Below, one piece after another: positions 1,041 to 20,587 of a stretch of DNA of 64,000 bases (its first letter is position 1; each line of letters begins with the position of its first letter). The position numbers and the translations under genes were made by a program. The DNA lies in NCBI RefSeq assembly GCF_013340305.1, contig NZ_BLVP01000007.1, positions 248,001 to 312,000 of the forward strand, given 5' to 3'. The stretch is from Desulfovibrio psychrotolerans. GTDB taxonomy: Bacteria; Desulfobacterota; Desulfovibrionia; Desulfovibrionales; Desulfovibrionaceae. The notes beneath the pieces are model-generated. The model did not search any database and had not been told where the DNA came from. It worked only from the letters and a program-made list of their open reading frames with translations.

Positions 1041-3383
1041 ATGGCACGCATTCTCATCATAGACGGCGACTCCGCCTTCCGCGACACACTGGGAGCCATT
1101 GTCACGGGCCTCGGCCATCATGCAGACCACGCCGCCACGCTGGCCGAAGCAATGGCCCCCTCAACCTCACGCGGCACAGACATCATCTTTCTGAACGCCC
1201 GCCTTGAGGACGGCAGCGGACTGGACGCCCTGCCCCGCCTGCGCAACACCCCCGGCAAGCCGGAAATCATCATCGTCACAGACGCCGCCACCCCGGACGG
1301 AGCGGAACGCGCCATCCGCAACGGTGCGTGGGAGTATCTCTCCAAGCAGGGCACCGTGGACCGCATGGTTCTCCCCCTGCTCCGCGCGCTGGAATATCGG
1401 GGCCGCAAGCCCAGCAAGCGGGAGGAGGTGCGCCTCAAACGCGACTCCATCATCGGCAACGGCGCGGGCATTACCCGCTGTCTGGATATCGTGTCCGAGG
1501 CTGCCGCGTCAGACGCCTCAGCCCTGCTGTACGGAGAAACCGGGGTAGGCAAAGAGGTCTTTGCCCGCGCCATCCACGAAAACAGCCAGCGTCATAGCGG
1601 TCCCTTCGTGGCGGTAGACTGCGCCTCGCTCTCGCGTACCCTCGCGGGGTCCACCCTGTTCGGGCATCGTAAGGGCGCGTTCACCGGAGCGGACAAGGAC
1701 CGCGACGGCCTTGTGGCACAGGCCCACCGGGGAACGCTCTTTCTGGACGAGGTGGGCGAACTGCCGCTGGCCATGCAAAAGATTTTCCTCCGCGTCCTGC
1801 AGGAGCACCGTTTCCGCCCCGTGGGGGGCCGCGCGGAAATCACTTCCGATTTCCGCCTCATCTGCGCCACCAACCGCAATCTGGAAGAAATGGTCTCGCG
1901 CGGAACCTTCCGCAGCGACCTGCTTTTCCGCATGCGCACCGTGGTCATGCACATCCCCCCCCTGCGGGAACGTACCGAAGACCTCCCGGAACTGGCGGAA
2001 CACTATACCCGGCGCCTCTGCGGCAAGTACGGCATGCCCATGAAAAGCCTGTCCACAGACCTGCACGCCGCCCTGCGGGAATATCTCTGGCCCGGCAACG
2101 TGCGCGAACTCATCCATACGCTGGAACGGGCGGTCCTCGCCGCACAGGATGACCCCAAACTCTTCTCCCGCCACCTGCCGGACCACGTGCGCATCAGCAT
2201 TGCCCGCGCCGCCGCCAGCGATGCCGAAGCACTTTCGTTGACCGCCCCCCCTGCGCTGCATGGGGAACCTCGGCCGTCTGGAGAAATCAGGCCGTCTGCG
2301 GAACTGCGGGTGCCTGTAAATGCCCATCCCTCTGCGTCGTCTGCCCCGTATGCGGAACCTCGCCCCTTTACGGAATCTGCGGCGACTGCAACAGCCGCAA
2401 TGACGGGGTCACCCGCGACGACATCGACGACGGGTGCACCTGCGGCAACCCGGACAACGTGGGCACTCGGGGTGCCTGAGACGTCAGAAGCATCCCGAAT
2501 TTCTGAGTCATCCCGAATTTCTGAGCCATCCCGGTCACCTGAAGCGTCCCGGACACATGAGGCATCCCGGACACACCAGACATACCGGACAGCAAGGGAA
2601 GATGCGGCATATGGGGCACCCGGACCATCCGGACCATTCGGACAATTCGAATCGCCCGAATCGCCCGGACCATCAGAACCGTCAGAACCGTCCGGACCAT
2701 CAGGCGTATCAGGAATAGTGGTCGCATCCGGAGCCCCGCGCCCCGTCTCTCCGGCTGCAGCTTCCCGGCCCGCCACGCCCCACGCGCCGCATGTCCCGCA
2801 TATGGCCCCCCGGCCTGACGAGGCAGACTCCTTTGCCTCGCCCCATCGTCCTTACGAGGCAAGCTCATATACTCCGCCCCGTCGCCCTGACGAGGCAAGC
2901 TCCTATACGGTGCCCCTTCGGCCCGATGATGCAGACTCCTTTACCCCGCCCCTCCGTCCCGGTGCCTCCTGCCGTTTGGGCGATGCCATGGAAGAAGAAA
3001 CGGCACACGGCCACCCGCACCTGCAACACGCGGCCATCTCTTCCCATACCCGGCACGTCCCTTGGGGAACAGACACACAGTCCGGAATCCCGGACAATCA
3101 CGCTGCCTCAAAATCCTCTATCCCGGACAAAAACCCTGCCGCCCTCCCGCAGCCCGCAACCGTCCCGCCGCTACACGGCCATTCCGTCCAACCTTCGTCC
3201 AGTTCTCTTCCACCTTTCTTCCAGTTTCGGGATTCCGTGTTCACGGCCTACCTTACGCAACTCATGGATACCGCTCAGGGCGACATTGCCACTGCCTGCA
3301 CGCTTTCCGGCCTGTCACGCTCCCATCTGTATGATCTTCTAAAAAAACACGGCGTTGCCACCATACGCAAACGCCGTCCCTGA
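1041..3383 (+). CDS. Sigma-54-dependent regulator with pseudo-receiver and a long low-complexity insert
   Basis: 780 aa against the usual 440-480 for NtrC-type activators. Residues 1-120 form a receiver fold, but the phospho-acceptor position is Asn52 (IIFLNARLEDG) instead of Asp. Residues about 130-370 are the AAA+ domain: Walker A GETGVGKE, sigma-54 contact loop GAFTGA, Walker B LFLDEVGEL. The last 50 residues hold a Fis-type helix-turn-helix (LSGLSRSHLYDLL). Between AAA+ and HTH lie about 340 residues rich in Pro, Ser, Glu and Ala that include two sets of tandem repeats (residues 484-519 and 591-638). The frame stays open throughout and the HTH is intact, so the insert is probably translated. 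Likely partner is the kinase 3 nt upstream. Loss of the acceptor Asp argues against classical phospho-control. Confidence 0.9.
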   Translation: MARILIIDGDSAFRDTLGAIVTGLGHHADHAATLAEAMAPSTSRGTDIIFLNARLEDGSGLDALPRLRNTPGKPEIIIVTDAATPDGAERAIRNGAWEYLSKQGTVDRMVLPLLRALEYRGRKPSKREEVRLKRDSIIGNGAGITRCLDIVSEAAASDASALLYGETGVGKEVFARAIHENSQRHSGPFVAVDCASLSRTLAGSTLFGHRKGAFTGADKDRDGLVAQAHRGTLFLDEVGELPLAMQKIFLRVLQEHRFRPVGGRAEITSDFRLICATNRNLEEMVSRGTFRSDLLFRMRTVVMHIPPLRERTEDLPELAEHYTRRLCGKYGMPMKSLSTDLHAALREYLWPGNVRELIHTLERAVLAAQDDPKLFSRHLPDHVRISIARAAASDAEALSLTAPPALHGEPRPSGEIRPSAELRVPVNAHPSASSAPYAEPRPFTESAATATAAMTGSPATTSTTGAPAATRTTWALGVPETSEASRISESSRISEPSRSPEASRTHEASRTHQTYRTAREDAAYGAPGPSGPFGQFESPESPGPSEPSEPSGPSGVSGIVVASGAPRPVSPAAASRPATPHAPHVPHMAPRPDEADSFASPHRPYEASSYTPPRRPDEASSYTVPLRPDDADSFTPPLRPGASCRLGDAMEEETAHGHPHLQHAAISSHTRHVPWGTDTQSGIPDNHAASKSSIPDKNPAALPQPATVPPLHGHSVQPSSSSLPPFFQFRDSVFTAYLTQLMDTAQGDIATACTLSGLSRSHLYDLLKKHGVATIRKRRP
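2490..2597 (+). repeat. Six tandem 18-bp units coding hexapeptides
   Basis: In-frame units of 18 bp within the sigma-54 regulator gene encode ASRISE, SSRISE, PSRSPE, ASRTHE, ASRTHQ and TYRTAR. The first two units are nearly identical at DNA level and later ones drift, as expected of repeat expansion followed by decay. Confidence 0.85.
2811..2954 (+). repeat. Four tandem 36-bp units coding 12-residue repeats
   Basis: Four in-frame 36-bp units in the same linker follow the pattern R-P-x-(D/E)-A-x-S-(F/Y)-x-x-P-x. They are a second, independent repeat set in this protein. Confidence 0.85.
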
Positions 3384-3683
3384 CCGCAATTCAGGCTCCC
3401 CCTGCCCTGTCCTACCCTTGCCCTGCCTTTACCCGGCCCCTCGCCCGGACTCGTCAGCCCCTCTTCCGCCCTTCTTCCGGCCTTCGTCAGCCCTTCTTCC
3501 GGCCTTCATCCGGCCTTCATCCAAATCTCGTCCTATCCCCCCTTCGCCGCTTGAGTTCCCCCTCGCCCGCTCCCGCTCGGCTCCGGCTCTGTTCCTCGCC
3601 TGCCCACGTCAGCCCTCGCCCCGGCTCCATACAAGCCTCCGCAGGATTTCACCCCCCCCACGCCCACTCGGCGTGCCCCAAAA

Positions 3684-3719
3684 TCCGCCATCGCGGATAA
3701 TTTTATCCGCGATAGCGGA
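3684..3719. repeat. Large perfect-looking inverted repeat in a convergent gap
   Basis: Two 16-nt arms (left arm TCCGCCATCGCGGATA, right arm its complement with one mismatch) flank a 4-nt ATTT loop. No T-run follows, so it is not a typical intrinsic terminator. It lies about 300 nt past the stop of the sigma-54 regulator. It could be an operator or an RNA hairpin. The stretch 3384-3683 before it is C-rich and shows no convincing gene. Confidence 0.7.
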
Positions 3720-3844
3720 CACTCTGTACTCTTGGTTCCGGTTTGACCCCGCAGATGGCAGACTGTTTGAAAAGAGGAATCACTCCTGATGAACTATCCT
3801 TTTATTTTGCATAGATAGACATCATGGTACGGTTCTTGGAGTAC

Positions 3845-4019
3845 TGAGCGCGAAGACACCGGTCTGTCTTCGCCGCTACCTCCCCACATGGCGGACAAAG
3901 TACGGGGAAGGTATGCGGCATGCCGGAATAACGCCCGGCACATGCAGACGCCCCGCTCTCTGGACAAGGGTGGGGCAGAAACGTAGCGCGCCGCCCAAAA
4001 GGGCGGCGCGATATCTTTT
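3845..4019 (+). ncRNA. Candidate structured small RNA ending in a strong terminator
   Basis: This non-coding stretch between convergent genes can form a run of local hairpins: a 9-bp stem GCGAAGACA/TGTCTTCGC (3850-3858 with 3865-3873), TACC-CCCC/GGGG-GGTA (3877-3885 with 3904-3913), TGCCGG/CCGGCA (3921-3926 with 3935-3940), GCCCC/GGGGC (3950-3954 with 3972-3976), then a 10-bp terminator stem. I could not match it to SRP RNA, tmRNA, RNase P or 6S by eye. It may instead be the 3' UTR of cheV on the other strand. Confidence 0.35.
3987..4019. terminator. Intrinsic terminator, better oriented for the + strand
   Basis: A 10-bp GC stem (CGCGCCGCCC / GGGCGGCGCG) with an AAAA loop is followed on the + strand by ATATCTTTT. 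Read on the - strand it follows the cheV stop, so it may act in both directions. Confidence 0.75.
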
Positions 4020-4079
4020 CACAGAGATGAAAAAATCTGAATGATGGGGCACCGGCAGTAACCGGTGTCCGAAAAACCG

Positions 4080-5021
4080 CTACAGACCTCTGGCTTCCAG
4101 CAACTCCAGCATACGGTCGCTCAGCCGTTGCAAGTCCGGCTTGGCAAACTGGGCGTCCGCTCCCACAGCCTGCCCCTTGTGCTCCAGCTTTTCCGTGATC
4201 AGCGAGGAGAACAGGGCAACCGGCAACACCCGCAGAACCGTACTATCCTTAATGCGCTTGCACAGGTTGTGCCCGTCCATCTGGGGCATCTCTATGTCCG
4301 AAATGACCCCTTGAACATACTCTGTCACCGGGCATCCTTCCTCTTGCGCACGGACCATCTGCCGTTCCAGAAACTCCCAAGCATCGCGCCCGTTCGTAAA
4401 CTGCACCACTTTAAAATTACATGCCTCAAGCAGGGTCTTCACCAGATTGCGCACACTGCCGGAATCATCTGCGTGCACAATGGTATACACCTTACCGCAA
4501 TTGCGTACCGCCGCGTTCGGGTCCATGCGGATGGCAAGGCTGGAATCCAGATCCGCCACAATCATCTCCAGATCCAGCAAAAAGACCACCCGCCCCTCCA
4601 GCCGGACCACGCCGGTTATGGCGTTCTGCGTGGTGCGCTGCAGAAACTCGCTGGGGGCTTCCACCTCTTCCCAGCTCATGCGGTGGATACGGTTGACGCC
4701 GGAAACAAGAAACGCGGAAACGACCTCGTTGAATTCTGTTACAATAACCTTGGGTTCAGCAGACTGAATCCGATGCCGCCCCAAATAGGTGGCAAGGTCT
4801 ATAAGCGCCACCAAGGTATTATCCCTGTGCTTGAAAGCCCCCATCACCGCCGGGTTCGGCATTTCGGGCATGGAAGTAACCGGCTGCTTACGCAGTATTT
4901 CCAGCACTTTTGCGACATTCACTCCGTAATGCGCCCGATAACCGTCCTCTTCATCAATGAAGAACTCTACGATTTCAAGTTCGTTGGTCCCTGACTCAAG
5001 CAGAATATTGGTTTGCGACAT
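4080..5021 (-). CDS. cheV: Chemotaxis coupling protein CheV (CheW domain plus receiver)
   Basis: 313 aa. The N-terminal half is a CheW-like scaffold domain (residues about 10-170, with VALIDLATYLG and VVFLLDLEMIV strands typical of the family). The C-terminal half is a receiver with acidic HADD pocket, phospho-acceptor Asp in ISDIEMPQMDG and conserved Lys in FAKPD. CheV couples chemoreceptors to the CheA kinase and adapts through phosphorylation. It stands alone here, with the sod gene upstream on the same strand 220 nt away. A hairpin at about 5077-5097 (GCGGAAAG / CTTTCCGC) lies in that gap. The architecture is diagnostic. Confidence 0.95.
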   Translation of the reverse strand: MSQTNILLESGTNELEIVEFFIDEEDGYRAHYGVNVAKVLEILRKQPVTSMPEMPNPAVMGAFKHRDNTLVALIDLATYLGRHRIQSAEPKVIVTEFNEVVSAFLVSGVNRIHRMSWEEVEAPSEFLQRTTQNAITGVVRLEGRVVFLLDLEMIVADLDSSLAIRMDPNAAVRNCGKVYTIVHADDSGSVRNLVKTLLEACNFKVVQFTNGRDAWEFLERQMVRAQEEGCPVTEYVQGVISDIEMPQMDGHNLCKRIKDSTVLRVLPVALFSSLITEKLEHKGQAVGADAQFAKPDLQRLSDRMLELLEARGL

Positions 5022-5242
5022 AGCCCCGCCGTTCAGGAAAAAGTCAAAGGAAAACGCCTAGTTCCCACCCGCGGAAAGCCAGCCTTTCCGCCGCGCGTCT
5101 TCGTGCAGTAGTCATACTACACCCAAACCGCCTGCATCGGCAATGTAGTATTAGGCGCTGTCCACACATTCTAAACGCCGCATCAGCTATCATCCTGCAC
5201 TGCGACGCAAAAAACTAAGGCAGGGCGACAACGCGTCCTGCA

Positions 5243-6124
5243 TTAACGGCGTGAACTGTAGAGATGCTCAGCATGGCTCCAGTCAACCAGACTATGCAGA
5301 AAGGTTTCCGCATAGCGGGCGCGATCGTCCCCGTAATCCTTATGGTAGGCAAGCTCCCACAGGTCCAACGCCAGCAGCGGCTGCCTGCCCGTCAGCAGGG
5401 GAGAGGTGGCAGCCATGGCATGCATGAGTGAGACGCTCGCACCATCGGAGACAAGCCATAACCAGCCTGCCCACAGACGGTTGGCGGCGCGGGCAAGAAA
5501 CACATCCCGAAAGGCTTCCCATGAACCGAAGGACGCCACAATAGCATCCATGAGTTGTGCTTTGGGTCTGCCGCCCCCTCCGGGCTTCATGCTACGCCAG
5601 TACAGCGCGTGGTTGTGGAGTGTGCACAGGCATTCGGTCACGCGCCGAACCTCGGGCCGACCGGAATCAAGCCGCGCCACATGGCGGACCACGGCCTCCA
5701 GCCCCTGTCCGGCAACGGGCATATTGCTGATCAGCGCTTCCAGTTCCAGCTCCACGTCCCGTATACTGTCCGAGCCAAGGCTGCCGCAGTGCTGGCTTAC
5801 GGTCCGTGCGGATAAAAACGGCTCCAGCGCAGTCACCGTGTAAGGCGGCAGTGATTCTGCCATCAGTTGCACCGCCAGCCGTCCTTCCTGTCTTCCAGCC
5901 AGACGACCTGCCCGGCTTTCCGCCTGAACAGCAGGCTGCATCCGCACCTGATGCTCTCCCCGTGCTGCCGCTCCTGAAACGGTTGCCGGTGCCAGAACAT
6001 CGGCTACCACCCGCACCAGCCCTCCGGCAATTTCCTGAAGCCCTGTTGCCGGAACGGCTGAAGCGTGTCCGGGCATCGTTAAGGCGGAAGCGTTCATCGG
6101 CCCTGTAATTGTGAGTGCATGCAT
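5243..6124 (-). CDS. sodB: Fe/Mn-type superoxide dismutase with N-terminal extension
   Basis: 293 aa from the ATG at 6124, chosen because GGGGAGGG sits just upstream. Residues from about 95 onward are a superoxide dismutase: LPPYTVTALEPFLSA at the start, and all four metal ligands in place (His in SQHCG, His in NHALYW, Asp in LDLWE, His in AYHKDY). It would convert superoxide to peroxide and oxygen, useful to an anaerobe meeting air. The first ~95 residues are Ala/Gly/Arg-rich, not a clear signal peptide, and make the protein about half again as long as the usual ~195 residues. A later internal start (Met near residue 90, LMAESLPPY) would give normal length. Confidence 0.85.
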   Translation of the reverse strand: MHALTITGPMNASALTMPGHASAVPATGLQEIAGGLVRVVADVLAPATVSGAAARGEHQVRMQPAVQAESRAGRLAGRQEGRLAVQLMAESLPPYTVTALEPFLSARTVSQHCGSLGSDSIRDVELELEALISNMPVAGQGLEAVVRHVARLDSGRPEVRRVTECLCTLHNHALYWRSMKPGGGGRPKAQLMDAIVASFGSWEAFRDVFLARAANRLWAGWLWLVSDGASVSLMHAMAATSPLLTGRQPLLALDLWELAYHKDYGDDRARYAETFLHSLVDWSHAEHLYSSRR

Positions 6125-6278
6125 GTTTTCCCTCCCCTTGGGACATACCTGAGTGTGTACGGTCGGTTGAATGCCTGCCCGAACAGTAGTGAAGATTCGT
6201 GCCGTAACGAAAACGACATTGTGACTTTTACACGAACACGCTATACAGCCATGCCCGCAGCCCACAGGACGACACACC

Positions 6279-7487
6279 ATGCGCACGCCCGACAAAACCG
6301 ATAGACCCGATGTGCCAGACAGGCCAGACACAACCGACAAACCCGACGCTCATGGCAGCCCCACGCCAAACAGGCCGGAAAAGAGTGGAATGCGCAAAAA
6401 ACGCGGCGCAACCTCGCTCCTGCTGCCTGTGCTCCTTTGCGGGCTGGCCCTGTGGGTCATATTCAGGCACGACCCGGCGTTGCTGGCATGGAGCAAGGCG
6501 TGGCCGGAACTGCTGCGGCCGCTTACACGCATGCTGGCCTTTCTTGGGGTGGGGCTCGTGGCGGGCCTTGCCGTGGAGGGCATGGGCTGGTCTGCGTGGC
6601 TCGCCGCTGCCGTGCGACCGCTCATGCGGTTCGGACGCCTGCGCGATGCGTCCGGAGCGGCCTTTGCCACCGCCTTCTTTTCCGGCACCGCAGCCAACGC
6701 CATGCTCATGAACGCATGGCGCGACGGCAGGCTGGGGGAGCGTGAAATGCGCCTTTCCTACCTTGTAAACACCGGCCTGCCCGTCTTTCTGCTGCACCTG
6801 CCCACCACCTTTTTTGTGGTGGTTCCCATGACCCGCTCCGCCGGAGCCATATACCTTGCCCTGAACGCCCTTGCCGCCATGCTGCGCACGCTGGGGGTTC
6901 TGGCCTGGACCCGCGCCACCCTGCACGCCGCGCCCGCCGCCGGAATATCCGCCGAGACGGATGCCAGCCCAGCCACGGCAACGGCACACCCCGCCGGGGA
7001 CAGCACCAGCCAGAATACGGGCCGGAACACGGACCGCACCACGCCGCAAAAGATCCTTGCCGCGTTCCGCAACCGGTTCTGGCGCATCGTCACCATAACC
7101 GTTCCCATCTACCTGCTCATGTACGCCCTGAACCAGACCGGGGTGTTCGAAAATCTGCGCGACATGGCCGCACACTGGGTCGTCACCGGCCTGCTGCCCG
7201 TAGAGGCTGTCAGCGTGGTGGTCTTTGCCGTGGCGGCAGAATTCACATCCGGCATTGCAGCGGCAGGCGCATTGCTGGACGCAGGCTCCCTGACCACCCA
7301 GCAGGCAGTGCTGGCCCTTGTTCTGGGAACCATAGTGGCCACACCCATACGTGCCATCCGGCACCAGTTGCCCGCGCACGCAGGGGTTTTTACCCCCCGT
7401 CTGGGCCTTGTCATGCTGCTGCAAAGCCAGTTTCTGCGCGTTGCCAGCCTGCTGCTGGTCACGGCAGGCTATGTCGCACTGGCCTGA
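6279..7487 (+). CDS. Multispanning membrane protein, nucleoside-recognition (gate) domain type
   Basis: 402 aa. After a polar N-terminus with repeated Asp-Arg-Pro-Asp segments, hydrophobic helices begin at about residue 45 (LLLPVLLCGLALWVIF). Two blocks resemble the gate/nucleoside-recognition fold of SpmA-like proteins: SGTAANAMLMNAWRDGRL near residue 140, and a later block with EFTSGIAAAGALL. The start could be Met at 6279 or the later Met at 6390 (MRKKRGATS), which would remove the repeat-rich tail. It is divergent from sod and lies just before the cobalamin riboswitch, but is not under its control. Substrate unknown. Confidence 0.7.
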   Translation: MRTPDKTDRPDVPDRPDTTDKPDAHGSPTPNRPEKSGMRKKRGATSLLLPVLLCGLALWVIFRHDPALLAWSKAWPELLRPLTRMLAFLGVGLVAGLAVEGMGWSAWLAAAVRPLMRFGRLRDASGAAFATAFFSGTAANAMLMNAWRDGRLGEREMRLSYLVNTGLPVFLLHLPTTFFVVVPMTRSAGAIYLALNALAAMLRTLGVLAWTRATLHAAPAAGISAETDASPATATAHPAGDSTSQNTGRNTDRTTPQKILAAFRNRFWRIVTITVPIYLLMYALNQTGVFENLRDMAAHWVVTGLLPVEAVSVVVFAVAAEFTSGIAAAGALLDAGSLTTQQAVLALVLGTIVATPIRAIRHQLPAHAGVFTPRLGLVMLLQSQFLRVASLLLVTAGYVALA

Positions 7488-17187: not shown

Positions 17188-17216
17188 TTGGCGGATAGGC
17201 GATTTTGATGTATATA
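17188..17216 (+). promoter_or_regulatory. Sigma-70-type promoter for the DksA/TraR-like gene
   Basis: TTGGCG (17188-17193), 17-nt spacer, TATATA (17211-17216), about 55 nt before the start codon. Confidence 0.6.
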
Positions 17217-17270
17217 CTGACCTTTCGGGTTTGCCCCGCACCCCATAACCATAACAGCGCAGGACGCCGC

Positions 17271-17603
17271 ATGACGGAAGCAGACAGAACCGCCATCCGC
17301 CGCAAGATTCAGGACGAGATGGAACGGCTCAGGCCGGAAATTGAACGCCTCAGGGAAGTCACCCGCCCCGTTGCCCCCGACGACTCCATAGGGAGACTGT
17401 CGCGCATGGACAACATAGTGAATATAGGCGTGAACAAGGCCGCACTGGGCAAGGCTGCGGCCCGTCTGGCAGGGTTGGAATACGCGCTCACGCAATTAGA
17501 CTCACCGGATTTCGGCACCTGCGCCGAATGCGGCACCAGCATACCCCTTGCCCGCCTGCTTGCCATGCCGGAATCGGACCTATGCGTGCGTTGCGCCGAA
17601 TAG
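17271..17603 (+). CDS. DksA/TraR-type C4 zinc finger protein
   Basis: 110 aa from the ATG at 17271, preceded by AGGAC. An N-terminal helical hairpin (residues 1-70, Arg/Glu-rich) is followed by a four-Cys zinc finger: CAEC and CVRC, separated by a 17-residue spacer containing IPLARLLAMPES. The layout matches the DksA/TraR superfamily, which reaches into the RNA polymerase secondary channel. It is shorter than E. coli DksA (151 aa), so it may be a TraR-like paralogue. It is followed 120 nt later by the DsrE-like selenoprotein gene, which has its own promoter. Confidence 0.88.
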   Translation: MTEADRTAIRRKIQDEMERLRPEIERLREVTRPVAPDDSIGRLSRMDNIVNIGVNKAALGKAAARLAGLEYALTQLDSPDFGTCAECGTSIPLARLLAMPESDLCVRCAE

Positions 17604-17665
17604 AAGCCGCTTGCCCCCAGAGAAATACATGCCCCCGCCCGCGTTGCTCTGCCTACCCATCAGCA

Positions 17666-17695
17666 TTGCCAATCGATCCATGCCGATGATATAGA
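17666..17695 (+). promoter_or_regulatory. Sigma-70-type promoter for the DsrE-like selenoprotein gene
   Basis: TTGCCA (17666-17671), 18-nt spacer, TATAGA (17690-17695), giving a predicted leader of about 25 nt before the ATG at 17728. Confidence 0.55.
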
Positions 17696-17727
17696 TACCG
17701 CCTATACAAGACGCATCGGAGGTACGA

Positions 17728-18048
17728 ATGCAGGTACTCATCACCATTTCCAGCAGTGAGCCGGAAATCAAATGGAATGCCGTCCGGTTCGGCAATTTTC
17801 TTCTGGAACAGGGGGAAGATGTTACCATCTTCCTGAACGGCCCGGGAGTTGCCCTCACCGCAGGCGAAAGCGAGCAGTATCCCATAGGCCAGCAGGCCAA
17901 GGTGTTCTCTCTGAACGAAGGCACCCTTGTCGGCTGAGGCAAGTGCATGACCGCCCACGGTGTGGGCGAAAATCCCTTTGTCTCGGTTTCCAATATGCCG
18001 TTCCTGTACGAGGCCATGAAAAAGGCCGACAAGATTCTGAATTTCTGA
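17728..18048 (+). CDS. DsrE-like selenoprotein with in-frame UGA (Sec70)
   Basis: 106 aa if the UGA at 17935-17937 is read as selenocysteine; a naive reading stops at 69 aa. GGAGGT precedes the ATG by 4 nt. The part before UGA matches the DsrE-like fold (MQVLITISSSEPEIKWNAVR, FLLEQGEDVTIFL). The frame continues after UGA for 36 residues that complete the same family (NMPFLYEAMKKADKIL) and ends at a second UGA. The Sec sits in U-G-K-C, where relatives carry a C-G-x-C redox motif. A SECIS-like hairpin follows at 17952-17968. The family handles sulfur or thiol redox; partner and substrate are unknown. A simple nonsense mutation is less likely because the tail, hairpin and terminator are intact. 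Confidence 0.85.
17952..17968 (+). other. Candidate bacterial SECIS hairpin
   Basis: A perfect 7-bp stem CGCCCAC / GTGGGCG encloses a GGT (GGU) triloop. The loop begins 21 nt after the UGA and starts with two G residues. This fits the published bacterial SECIS pattern of a short stem 16-37 nt downstream with G in the first two loop positions. It lies within the coding sequence, as bacterial SECIS elements do. Confidence 0.8.
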
Positions 18049-18074
18049 TTCCGGTTCCGCAGTATGCACACAAC

Positions 18075-18110
18075 AGGGGCCGCTCCGGAGAACTTTCCGG
18101 AGCGGCCCCT
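18075..18110 (+). terminator. Hairpin terminator after the selenoprotein gene
   Basis: A 15-bp perfect stem (AGGGGCCGCTCCGGA and its complement, 6-nt loop) begins 27 nt after the true stop at 18046-18048, which supports that stop as the gene end. The T tail is weak. Confidence 0.75.
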
Positions 18111-18826
18111 TCCGTTGCCTACGGGGTTAGGCACCGGGTAAGAAAGAGCCCGCCATCAGAAAAATGGCGGGGCGTGCCCGCTCGCCCCGCCGCCTCACAT
18201 TTGGACCGGACGGCAGGCCGTCCGCCGCTCTGCGGCACCACGGGCGGTCTGCCCGCAGCCATTGCCGCCCTGCGCCGCAAGAGAGCATGGCACTGTTCAC
18301 TGTACACGCCGCCACGGTGCCCGCAACCGCTTTTCGGTGAACGGAAGCGGCAAGGCGGCAAACGGTGAATGGCTGCAGTTCAACCCTGCAAACGCGAAAA
18401 CGGCTCAGGAGCCACCCTGAGCCGTTTTCGGAAATTTGTTGTAAAAGAAAGAAGGTAATCAGGTACTAGCAATAGGCGTGCCAACAGCGCCAACCTTTTT
18501 CATAAAATCATAACACACTAAAATATAACGCAAAAACAACAGTGGCTTCCGTCCCGCTGTATACTCCGTCTCTTTTTCCCGTGCAAAATTTTAAACCTCC
18601 GTGGGGGATTGCTCCCGCCCATGCCTGTTCCGGCAAGGGCAGTTCAAAATCCTGCACGCGCAGCACAATATTTAAAACATTGATAATAATGGATTATTTA
18701 AGCTCAAACACTTCGTCCGGCCCAAACGAACAGGCCGGGAAAGGTCTGCGCCTCTCTCCGGCCTGCTTGGTGCAAAATGTTGAACCGGCTGAATCGGTAC
18801 TTGCTGTAAAACCTGCTGAGCGGGCT
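18111..18826. other. Long convergent intergenic region, no gene seen
   Basis: About 700 nt between the convergent selenoprotein and acyl-CoA ligase genes. The first part is GC-rich with hairpins such as CCCGCCAT / ATGGCGGG near 18148-18170. The part from about 18430 to 18720 is markedly AT-rich for this genome, with runs such as TAAAATATAACG. Possible short reading frames lack RBS and family features. Confidence 0.6.
18395..18430. terminator. Symmetric bidirectional terminator
   Basis: A 15-bp perfect stem CGAAAACGGCTCAGG / CCTGAGCCGTTTTCG with a 6-nt loop. The A and T runs built into the arms give a T-rich exit in either direction. It lies more than 300 nt from the nearest gene on each side. 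Confidence 0.8.
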
Positions 18827-20587
18827 TTACTCCACGTACAGATACCGCTTTATCTTGTGGGTGGGCGTCTTCTCAAAAGGCTCGGTCTGCTCAATCATCC
18901 TGTGCAGCCGCGCAAAGGTGGAAACCTTGCCGTTCGCCTCCTGCCGGAGCGATTCCAGCAATTCGTCCACCTTGGCCTGCATTTTGGCCACGGGCAGCTT
19001 GCCGAATTCCTCGTCCGCCTTGGCGTAGTCAATATGCACCCGCGCCGCCAGCTTGCCATCCAGTTGATAGACTATGCACTCCAGCACCCATGACGATTGG
19101 AGCAGCACACCCTCAATTTCTTCCGGATAGATATTCTCTCCGCTTGCGCCCACGATAACGTTCTTCAGCCGCCCCTTGATGACCAGATGCCCGTCCCGGT
19201 CCAGCTTTCCAAAATCACCTGTCCGGAACCAGCCGTCTTCCGTGAAGGTGCTGCGGGTAATCTCCGGTCCCTTGTAATACTCGCGCATTACGTTGGGCCC
19301 CTTTACAGCTATCTCACCCTCACCCGTCACGGGGTCTTTATCCAGAATGGTAATCTGCACCCCGTGCAGCGGCTTGCCGATGGAATACAGATTGGCCTTG
19401 CCGGGGGCATCTCCCGCACACAGGGGGCTGGTTTCCGTCAATCCGTAGCCCAGACCGTAGGGAAAGCCCGCCTCGCGCAGAAAAAGCTCCACATCCGGGG
19501 CAAGGGGCGCGCCGCCGATACAGAACATGCGCAGGCACCCGCCGAAGGTTTCCCTAAGCTTCTTCCCGGCAACGGCGTTCAGCTTTTTGCGCACAGCGGC
19601 TATGCCGTAAAGGCGGCGCTTCAGCCAGCTGCCCGTAAGCTTGGGCAGAATGGCGGTCTTAAAAATCTTTTCTATGACCAGCGGAACGGAGAGCATAATA
19701 GTGGGCCGCACCTGCGCCAGGGCGGGCAGCAGTGCGCGCGCCGTGGGCGGTTTGTCCAGATAGTGCACATGCGCGCCGTGTGCCAGCGGCAGCACCATGC
19801 CCAACGTGCATTCATAGGTGTGCGAAAGCGGCAGGATGGAAAGCAGCCTGTCTCCGGGACCAACCTGTATGATGGTTTCCACCACCGCTATGGCGTTGGA
19901 AACAATATTGCCGTGCGTGAGCACCACGCCCTTGGAGTGTCCCGTGGTGCCTGATGTGTAGATAATGGCGGCCACATCGTCCGGCTTTACCTCGTGCGGA
20001 GGCACATCGTACCACGCCTCGCCGGGCGTCTCCGCGGCATCATCGCCCGTGCTGCGCACCTTATCGGAAAACCGCTCCGCCATGCGCAGCGCCTTTTCCT
20101 TAAACTTGCGAAATTCGCGCAGTCCGGCCTTCTTCATCTCCTTCAGCCGGTCCTTGCCGTCATCCAGCCCCACAGGCACAAAGGATTCCATGAGAATAAG
20201 CAGCGGTTCCTCATCATACTGCCCGTCTTCCAGCTTGGGAAAGAGCTTTTCGGAGACAAACACCGCGCGGGACTCCGAATGCCGTATGATGTGGTGAATG
20301 GCGTCCGGGTGAAAGTCCGGCAGAATGGGCACCGCCACCGCCCCCATGGCGGTGATGGCAAAGTAGGCCACTGCCCAGTGCGGACAGCTCTCGCTGAGAA
20401 TGGCAACCCTGTCCCCCCGCGCTATGCCGTTGTTCGCAAGCATGCGGCTCAGGCTGTGCACGTTTTCGCCGAACTCGGCGTAGGTTACAGGCTCTTCTCC
20501 TACATTCGAAACAGCAGGATGCGCCGCAAAGCACCGTACGCTGCGCTCCAGCACGGCCTGCAACGTCTGCCTTTCCAATTTTTCCAT
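18827..20587 (-). CDS. AMP-dependent long-chain acyl-CoA (or acyl-ACP) synthetase
   Basis: 586 aa. ANL-superfamily motifs are complete: P-loop YTSGTTGHSKGVVLTH, GYGLTETSPL, DGWFRTGDFGKLDRDG, KGRLKNVIV, and the catalytic Lys in THKIKRYLYVE at the C-terminus. It activates a fatty acid through an acyl-adenylate. N-terminal sequence LERSVRCFAAHPAVS is typical of FadD-like enzymes. It is a single gene between a long convergent gap and a divergent Dabb-domain gene. Confidence 0.93.
   Translation of the reverse strand: MEKLERQTLQAVLERSVRCFAAHPAVSNVGEEPVTYAEFGENVHSLSRMLANNGIARGDRVAILSESCPHWAVAYFAITAMGAVAVPILPDFHPDAIHHIIRHSESRAVFVSEKLFPKLEDGQYDEEPLLILMESFVPVGLDDGKDRLKEMKKAGLREFRKFKEKALRMAERFSDKVRSTGDDAAETPGEAWYDVPPHEVKPDDVAAIIYTSGTTGHSKGVVLTHGNIVSNAIAVVETIIQVGPGDRLLSILPLSHTYECTLGMVLPLAHGAHVHYLDKPPTARALLPALAQVRPTIMLSVPLVIEKIFKTAILPKLTGSWLKRRLYGIAAVRKKLNAVAGKKLRETFGGCLRMFCIGGAPLAPDVELFLREAGFPYGLGYGLTETSPLCAGDAPGKANLYSIGKPLHGVQITILDKDPVTGEGEIAVKGPNVMREYYKGPEITRSTFTEDGWFRTGDFGKLDRDGHLVIKGRLKNVIVGASGENIYPEEIEGVLLQSSWVLECIVYQLDGKLAARVHIDYAKADEEFGKLPVAKMQAKVDELLESLRQEANGKVSTFARLHRMIEQTEPFEKTPTHKIKRYLYVE

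Follow-up and report, generated by a model that had tools for sequence, protein, structure and literature searches.

A predicted selenoprotein gene of the DsrE-like family in Desulfovibrio psychrotolerans

The window, by which we mean the whole stretch of DNA analyzed (64,000 nucleotides of Desulfovibrio psychrotolerans), contains a reading frame that runs from an ATG at 17728 through 69 codons, a TGA at codon 70 and 36 further codons to a second TGA (Table 1). ORF calling with table 11 closes the frame at the first of these stops (17728-17937, 69 aa). An earlier note on this DNA had proposed that the gene continues past the UGA, which would fall in a U-G-K-C motif; the coordinates of the 69 residues, the UGA, the 36 residues, the motif and the second stop were all verified. 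The ribosome-binding site claimed there is present as GGAGG. The claimed promoter is unconfirmed, with no sigma-70-like site found in 17560-18300. As for the terminator, the hairpin itself exists as a perfect 16-bp stem in a stretch (18040-18140) with a folding z of -5.6, but it lacks a T-run and is missing from the list returned by the terminator scan. An Rfam search of 17200-18500 gave seven weak matches, every one below gathering; the best of them, sX6 (23.8 bits versus 40), covers the gene end and the 3' hairpin and was taken as chance. Strong terminator-like inverted repeats also lie between the convergent genes at 18149-18191, where the scan puts them on the minus strand, and, as read by eye, at 18396-18429.

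Table 1. Features of the selenoprotein locus (positions in the window)
Feature	Position	Strand	Remarks
Upstream neighbor with DksA/TraR zinc finger (PF01258)	17205..17603	+	Same order in G170; in G142 without the selenoprotein gene
Shine-Dalgarno sequence GGAGG	17718..17722	+	5 nt 5' of the ATG; read by eye
DsrE-like selenoprotein CDS, 106 residues with Sec70	17728..18048	+	Stop TGA 18046-18048
In-frame UGA (Sec70)	17935..17937	+	First position of U-G-K-C
Cys73	17944..17946	+	Possible resolving Cys of U-G-K-C
Predicted SECIS hairpin, 7 bp	17952..17968	+	GGU loop 17959-17961; starts 14 nt 3' of the UGA
3' hairpin, terminator-like, strong and perfect (16 bp)	18075..18110	+	Without T-run
Convergent downstream neighbor, AMP-binding (acyl-CoA synthetase type)	18827..20587	-	

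The four neighbors scanned with Pfam are a DksA-type and an APH-type gene upstream and an AMP-binding and a Dabb gene downstream, and no sulfur gene or pathway clue was recognized among them. Within the genus, a match to the selenoprotein gene was found in two of 10 genomes, the window's genome and G170, which share the gene order DksA-type, selenoprotein, AMP-binding. In G142 (L227, 2349-3991) the DksA-type and AMP-binding genes lie 1.6 kb apart with no selenoprotein match between them; for six further genomes from the genus, the 4.7-7 kb beside the AMP-binding gene gave no DksA-type match. The selenoprotein gene was probably either lost in G142 or gained in the window's genome and G170. Clustering of neighborhoods found no gene conserved throughout the family.

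We then asked how far the UGA is conserved in the order. Among 297 genomes searched, 73 gave a match, and 56 carry a full-length copy whose sole internal stop is a single TGA (counted by eye; best copy identity at least 44%). In 55 relatives that equal the gene in length and have TGA as codon 70, mean identity is 62% before the UGA and 54% after it. The earlier note had asked whether relatives in sister species become unrelated after the UGA; they do not, but align across and beyond it. A pseudogene or a sequencing error was rejected on the strength of the one-TGA copies in 56 of the 297 genomes together with the conserved protein after the UGA. Stop-free copies with CGTC are found in G205 and G227 (33% identity, full length) and in G052 (32%, residues 11-106), and weaker partial matches without a stop are also present among genomes of the order. 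Three loci look degraded: L114 (G061:C38) and L115 (G029:C1:429166-429438) have a TAA besides the TGA and are apparently decayed, and L119 (G193) looks frameshifted.

The region following the UGA was aligned from 51 distinct sequences out of 54, three divergent sequences of the UGVC subgroup being left out. The sequences had been selected as UGA-bearing, and all 51 have TGA at the Sec position. Starting 14 nt past the UGA, they share a stem of 7 bp capped by a GGN loop, in which 98.6% of 357 cells pair, compared with at most 54.1% in slid-partner controls. Both sides change in three of the seven pairs, and the other four are invariant; pair 19-33 is broken in five of the 51 sequences. The covariation score was 0.169 (shuffle mean 0.057) and was reached by none of 500 shuffles, while the count of three covarying pairs was reached by one. 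RNAalifold, which was not given the stem beforehand, recovered the same one. The residues encoded across the stem are x-H-G-V-y, and the x and y codons tend to change together with pairing kept. The codons between them are constrained too: His77 is CAC in 56/56 genes (other His codons there, 17/29) and Val79 is GTG in 56/56 (other Val codons, 164/349). In a partly overlapping named set, at least six of the seven pairs were in register in 59 of 60 distinct sequences; among 5440 windows placed elsewhere in those genes, at other codons, 141 did as well. As a single sequence, the hairpin in the window is unexceptional for its composition (z -0.7), so the case for a SECIS rests on covariation and codon constraint. 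The UGA of selD in the same genome is likewise followed by a hairpin (8 bp, GGA loop), whose loop lies one nucleotide nearer the UGA than the GGU loop of the DsrE-like gene. With its 7 bp and GGN loop, the element has the G in a small apical loop just past the UGA that PMC1088965 gives as the mark of bacterial SECIS elements. From its pattern of sequence change, we assign the hairpin as a predicted SECIS element like that of selD. By eye, the hairpin that follows the UGA in L120 and L121 (UGVC subgroup) has a larger loop of GGUCU type in place of the main group's GGN triloop.

The genome also carries the genes needed to use such an element. The search for selA, selB, selC and selD that the earlier note had called for returned all four: tRNA-Sec (selC) at 79.4 bits (cut-off 47), selB at 366 (cut-off 242), selA at 611 (cut-off 268) and selD, which has its own in-frame TGA, at 341 (cut-off 125). 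Across the 297 genomes, joined by eye, the selenoprotein gene is present in 51 of 249 with a selA match and in five of 48 without, and the presence of selA has no predictive value for the gene. Three of the five carriers without a selA match (of 56 carriers) have selB over its cut-off. The remaining two are G232 (95% complete, 3 contigs), which has an apparently intact Sec gene at L099 but lacks both a selA match and a selB above the cut-off, and G287 (81% complete), where the Sec gene is present with neither a selA match nor selB over the cut-off.

The whole frame matches Pfam DsrE (PF02635) over residues 2-106 with 39.4 bits (cut-off 22.7), whereas the part before the UGA scores 15.2 bits by itself and stays under the cut-off. 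This bears out the claim that the residues after the UGA complete the same family. No second Pfam domain is over cut-off in the protein. The genome (3.79 Mb, 47 contigs) has four DsrE matches at E <= 0.001, of which this is the only one with a stop inside. A single-sequence phmmer search gave two matches, with E values of 0.36 and 0.72, that were taken as chance. In a profile search the top match was E. coli YchN (E 3.5e-9), in whose C-K-T-C the first Cys aligns with position 70. An AlphaFold2 model built from 62 sequences has a mean pLDDT of 97.3 and places residue 70, modeled as Cys, at the C-terminal end of strand 66-70. The top PDB match of this model in Foldseek is YchN as well (1jx7; E 2.9e-6, query TM 0.85), followed by other DsrE-family structures, one of them titled putative sulfurtransferase. 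The gene thus encodes a 106-residue protein with, in a confident model, a predicted DsrE/YchN fold. Five positions (E13, N17, R20, F35 and U/C70) are invariant in 91/91 representatives of the family. At the UGA position the 14 Cys representatives read CGTC, CGVC or CGSC, as expected if the UGA replaces the first Cys of the C-G-x-C seen in relatives; the Cys predicted at position 70 of DsrE-like proteins was found in both YchN and these homologues. Judging from fold and family, Sec70 would take the place of the active Cys of the fold family.

More relatives were collected by a scan of genome contigs with alignment A2, an earlier single-protein scan having given none. The scan confirmed 111 relatives, of which 80 were kept; 66 of these are Sec and 14 Cys forms, a ratio in which Cys forms may be under-sampled since the scan patterns were drawn from a Sec-rich alignment. 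By record title, the Sec form occurs in Desulfovibrio, Nitratidesulfovibrio, Solidesulfovibrio, Humidesulfovibrio, Desulfomicrobium, Desulfosarcina, Desulfobulbaceae, Syntrophobacteraceae, Thermosulfurimonas and others, and the Cys form in Woesearchaeota, Nanoarchaeota, a Methanoperedenaceae archaeon, Geoglobus, an Aquificaceae bacterium and others. From the 145 proteins, 91 representatives went into a quick tree, which is short (106 columns) and has 44 of its 88 inner branches drawn open. It calls for one change between Sec and Cys and for a single loss of the second Cys. With a single Sec/Cys change required, no reversion to Cys is seen among the 77 Sec representatives.

The motif's second Cys is more variable. 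It is found in all 14 Cys representatives and in 52 of the 77 Sec representatives (UGKC in 43; UGVC, UGSC or UGTC in nine), and it is missing in the other 25 (UGKL 17, UGKS 4, UQKS 3, USKL 1); a further loss, UGKR in L078, is masked by collapse into a UGKC representative. The earlier note had read the motif as C-G-x-C redox. Its first position holds, but a second Cys that is lost in 25/77 Sec representatives is not essential, and the literature label UxxC consequently fits part of the family only. Of the 25 Sec representatives without the second Cys, 14 have a Cys at position 8, where the first strand ends, although near copies and shared descent mean that these 14 may reflect one event; elsewhere Cys8 occurs in 0/43 UGKC, 1/9 other UxxC and 1/14 Cys forms. 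Five of the 25 lack Cys altogether. We read this as a partner thiol that may be movable or supplied from outside. Four loci (L080-L083) are identical protein copies in three genomes, twice in one (L082 and L083, at G216:C1:880566 and 3862497). They have ATA at the expected start codon and share a block with TauE/SafE and ArsR-type genes that looks recently moved or duplicated.

The neighborhoods of some distant relatives contain genes of kinds not recognized among the scanned neighbors of the window's gene; the Tso and TauE/SafE occurrences given here are plain counts. TsoR-type ArsR regulators and TsoA lie near the DsrE-like gene at seven distant loci (L116, L118, L170, L180, L188, L194 and L198), at one of which (L118) the DsrE-like gene is a Cys form. 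TsoA has the selenoprotein motif LULAEC (LULAKC in L170). It exceeded its curated cut-off in five of six tested, with L170 under it (96 versus 170) and L194 outside the tested set, and TsoR exceeded the NCBIfam cut-off in two of three. At L180, L194 and L198 (about 3073-4318) TsoA is directly upstream and ends 29-74 nt before the DsrE-like start. L116 (about 5200-7419) has TsoY too, over its cut-off, and a nearby gene named by eye as thioredoxin-reductase-like. Among the 297 genomes of the order TsoY exceeded its cut-off in one, and the window's genome gave no match; the Tso context is therefore not shown for the window's clade. TauE/SafE permeases are found near the gene in the near-copy clade (L069, L070 and L080-L083) and at L068, L166 and L170, and Pfam confirmed all four proteins tested (two from L069, one each from L166 and L170). 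By blastp clustering, ArsR-type regulators lie within about 3.5 kb of 14 of the 91 representatives (13 loci).

The conserved UGA frame, the SECIS hairpin and the Sec machinery genes in the genome make it very probable that the window's gene is a SECIS-decoded selenoprotein gene, in which SelB would read the hairpin and Sec would be inserted at UGA70. A true stop, arising by nonsense mutation or sequencing error or ending a functional 69-residue protein, would agree with the table 11 ORF and with the presence of the gene in G232 without selA or selB over cut-offs. This reading is extremely improbable given the lone UGA in full-length copies of 56/297 genomes, the protein conserved past it, the SECIS covariation and the full Sec machinery. 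For Sec70 itself, the role we consider most likely, at somewhat below an even chance, is to bind sulfane sulfur and then release or transfer it. The selenolate would take sulfane sulfur from a persulfide donor to give an enzyme-bound Se-SH (or Se-S-R) intermediate, and the sulfur would then leave as sulfide or be handed on after attack by Cys73, by Cys8 in some relatives or by an outside thiol. Sec is generally faster than Cys and less prone to irreversible oxidation, and in place of Cys it would speed the sulfur step and lessen such oxidation. In Allochromatium DsrE, Cys78 binds sulfur as a persulfide and hands it to DsrC (PMC3397948); this relay, with Sec70 on the conserved Cys of the fold family, favors a sulfane-sulfur role, for which we also counted the TauE/SafE neighbors of some relatives.

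Thiol-disulfide or peroxide redox chemistry, in which Sec70 would form a selenenylsulfide with Cys73 or Cys8 and be recycled by thioredoxin, appears rather unlikely to us. It would suit the UxxC motif, and the papers of 2005 and 2006 group the family with thiol-dependent oxidoreductase homologues (PMC1088965, PMC1794560). The distribution of Cys8 (14/25 without Cys73, 0/43 UGKC) looks as if a resolving Cys had moved, and the thioredoxin-reductase-like gene near L116 would fit as well. Against it, the closest folds belong to the DsrE family, including the putative sulfurtransferase, and the five proteins that lack any Cys indicate that an internal partner is not needed everywhere. Binding of a metal or metalloid (Hg, As, Te) by Sec70 in a detoxification route is improbable. 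The ArsR-type regulators near 14/91 representatives could equally mean metal(loid) handling, and TsoR, which is named a metalloregulator, is over cut-off in two of three tested; yet none of the four scanned neighbors of the window's gene is ArsR-type, and some ArsR-type repressors sense sulfite (BigR, by its NCBIfam title). Three ArsR-type proteins tested against BigR fell far below its cut-off.

Returning to sulfane sulfur, a broader and rather unlikely proposal is that the family as a whole is a Sec-based sulfur relay (Se-SH) with an exchangeable partner thiol, joined in deeper lineages by Tso selenoproteins and a TauE/SafE exporter in one sulfur-export or detoxification route. An exchangeable partner (Cys73, Cys8 or an outside thiol) would explain the loss of the second Cys without a return from Sec to Cys. 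Carrying sulfane sulfur is a role that the cited papers credit to Cys; if Sec does carry it here, selenium would be put to an unusual use. For a family on record for two decades, our comparison adds testable handles: the SECIS motif, the invariant residue set, a second Cys that can be lost or perhaps moved, and, in some relatives, neighbors suggestive of sulfur or metalloid handling.

Among known systems, YchN (1jx7) is the best structure and profile match, with a Cys of its C-K-T-C opposite Sec70; it differs in having Cys for Sec and shares 24% identity over the structural alignment. A literature search for a function of YchN found none. DsrE of DsrEFH and TusD of TusBCD, which we set beside the protein without direct comparison, are alike in Pfam/fold family name and in a single catalytic chalcogen. 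Chains named DsrEFH or TusBCD did not occur among the profile hits at E <= 1 or the best 50 Foldseek rows. Those systems have adjacent DsrF/TusC and DsrH/TusB partners, and we did not file the gene with them because its four scanned neighbors are not DsrF or DsrH. In YedF the C-terminal domain is DsrE-like and carries CGxC, and the protein is linked to selenium (PMC5322559). It combines SirA/TusA and DsrE domains, whereas the window's protein has one Pfam domain in 106 residues and matches neither TIGR03527 nor any other NCBIfam model, so this assignment was rejected; of four relatives, only the Cys form L117 matches TIGR03527, weakly (24 bits versus a cut-off of 110). The Tso (three selenoprotein operon) system resembles the family through the TsoR/TsoA-like genes near DsrE-like genes at seven distant loci, and filing under it was rejected on TsoY, the Tso component searched for in the window's genome, which gave no match there. 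A Tso-DsrE link was not found in print by a search that did not include the original Tso description (Haft and Tolstoy 2025). The single Sec/Cys change, the loss of the second Cys with the Cys8 pattern, and the Tso and TauE/SafE neighbors were likewise not found in print, and the term DsrE is absent from PMC5029168.

The closest counterpart is the DsrE-like selenoprotein family. Two DsrE-like UxxC selenoproteins were reported from Sargasso Sea data in 2005 (PMC1088965), Desulfovibrio vulgaris was listed in a table with one in 2006 (PMC1794560), and Global Ocean Sampling data yielded two types with 2 and 19 sequences (PMC2398784). Reviews of 2022 and 2026 include the family (PMC9312934, PMC13188914), and the latter counts it among those with largely uncharacterized functions. 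NCBI today places D. vulgaris in the genus Nitratidesulfovibrio, and relatives of the window's protein occur in N. oxamicus (L146, 57% identity) and N. liaohensis (L148, 56%). These congeners suggest that the published D. vulgaris selenoprotein, whose sequence lay outside our comparison, is probably the same gene. The "hidden selenoprotein" of the earlier note is thus apt with respect to annotation but not as a kind, the family being already known. The window's protein has the same Pfam family (PF02635), Sec in UxxC and a predicted downstream bacterial SECIS, and it differs in nothing at the level of kind; it is a further member of the known DsrE-like selenoprotein family.
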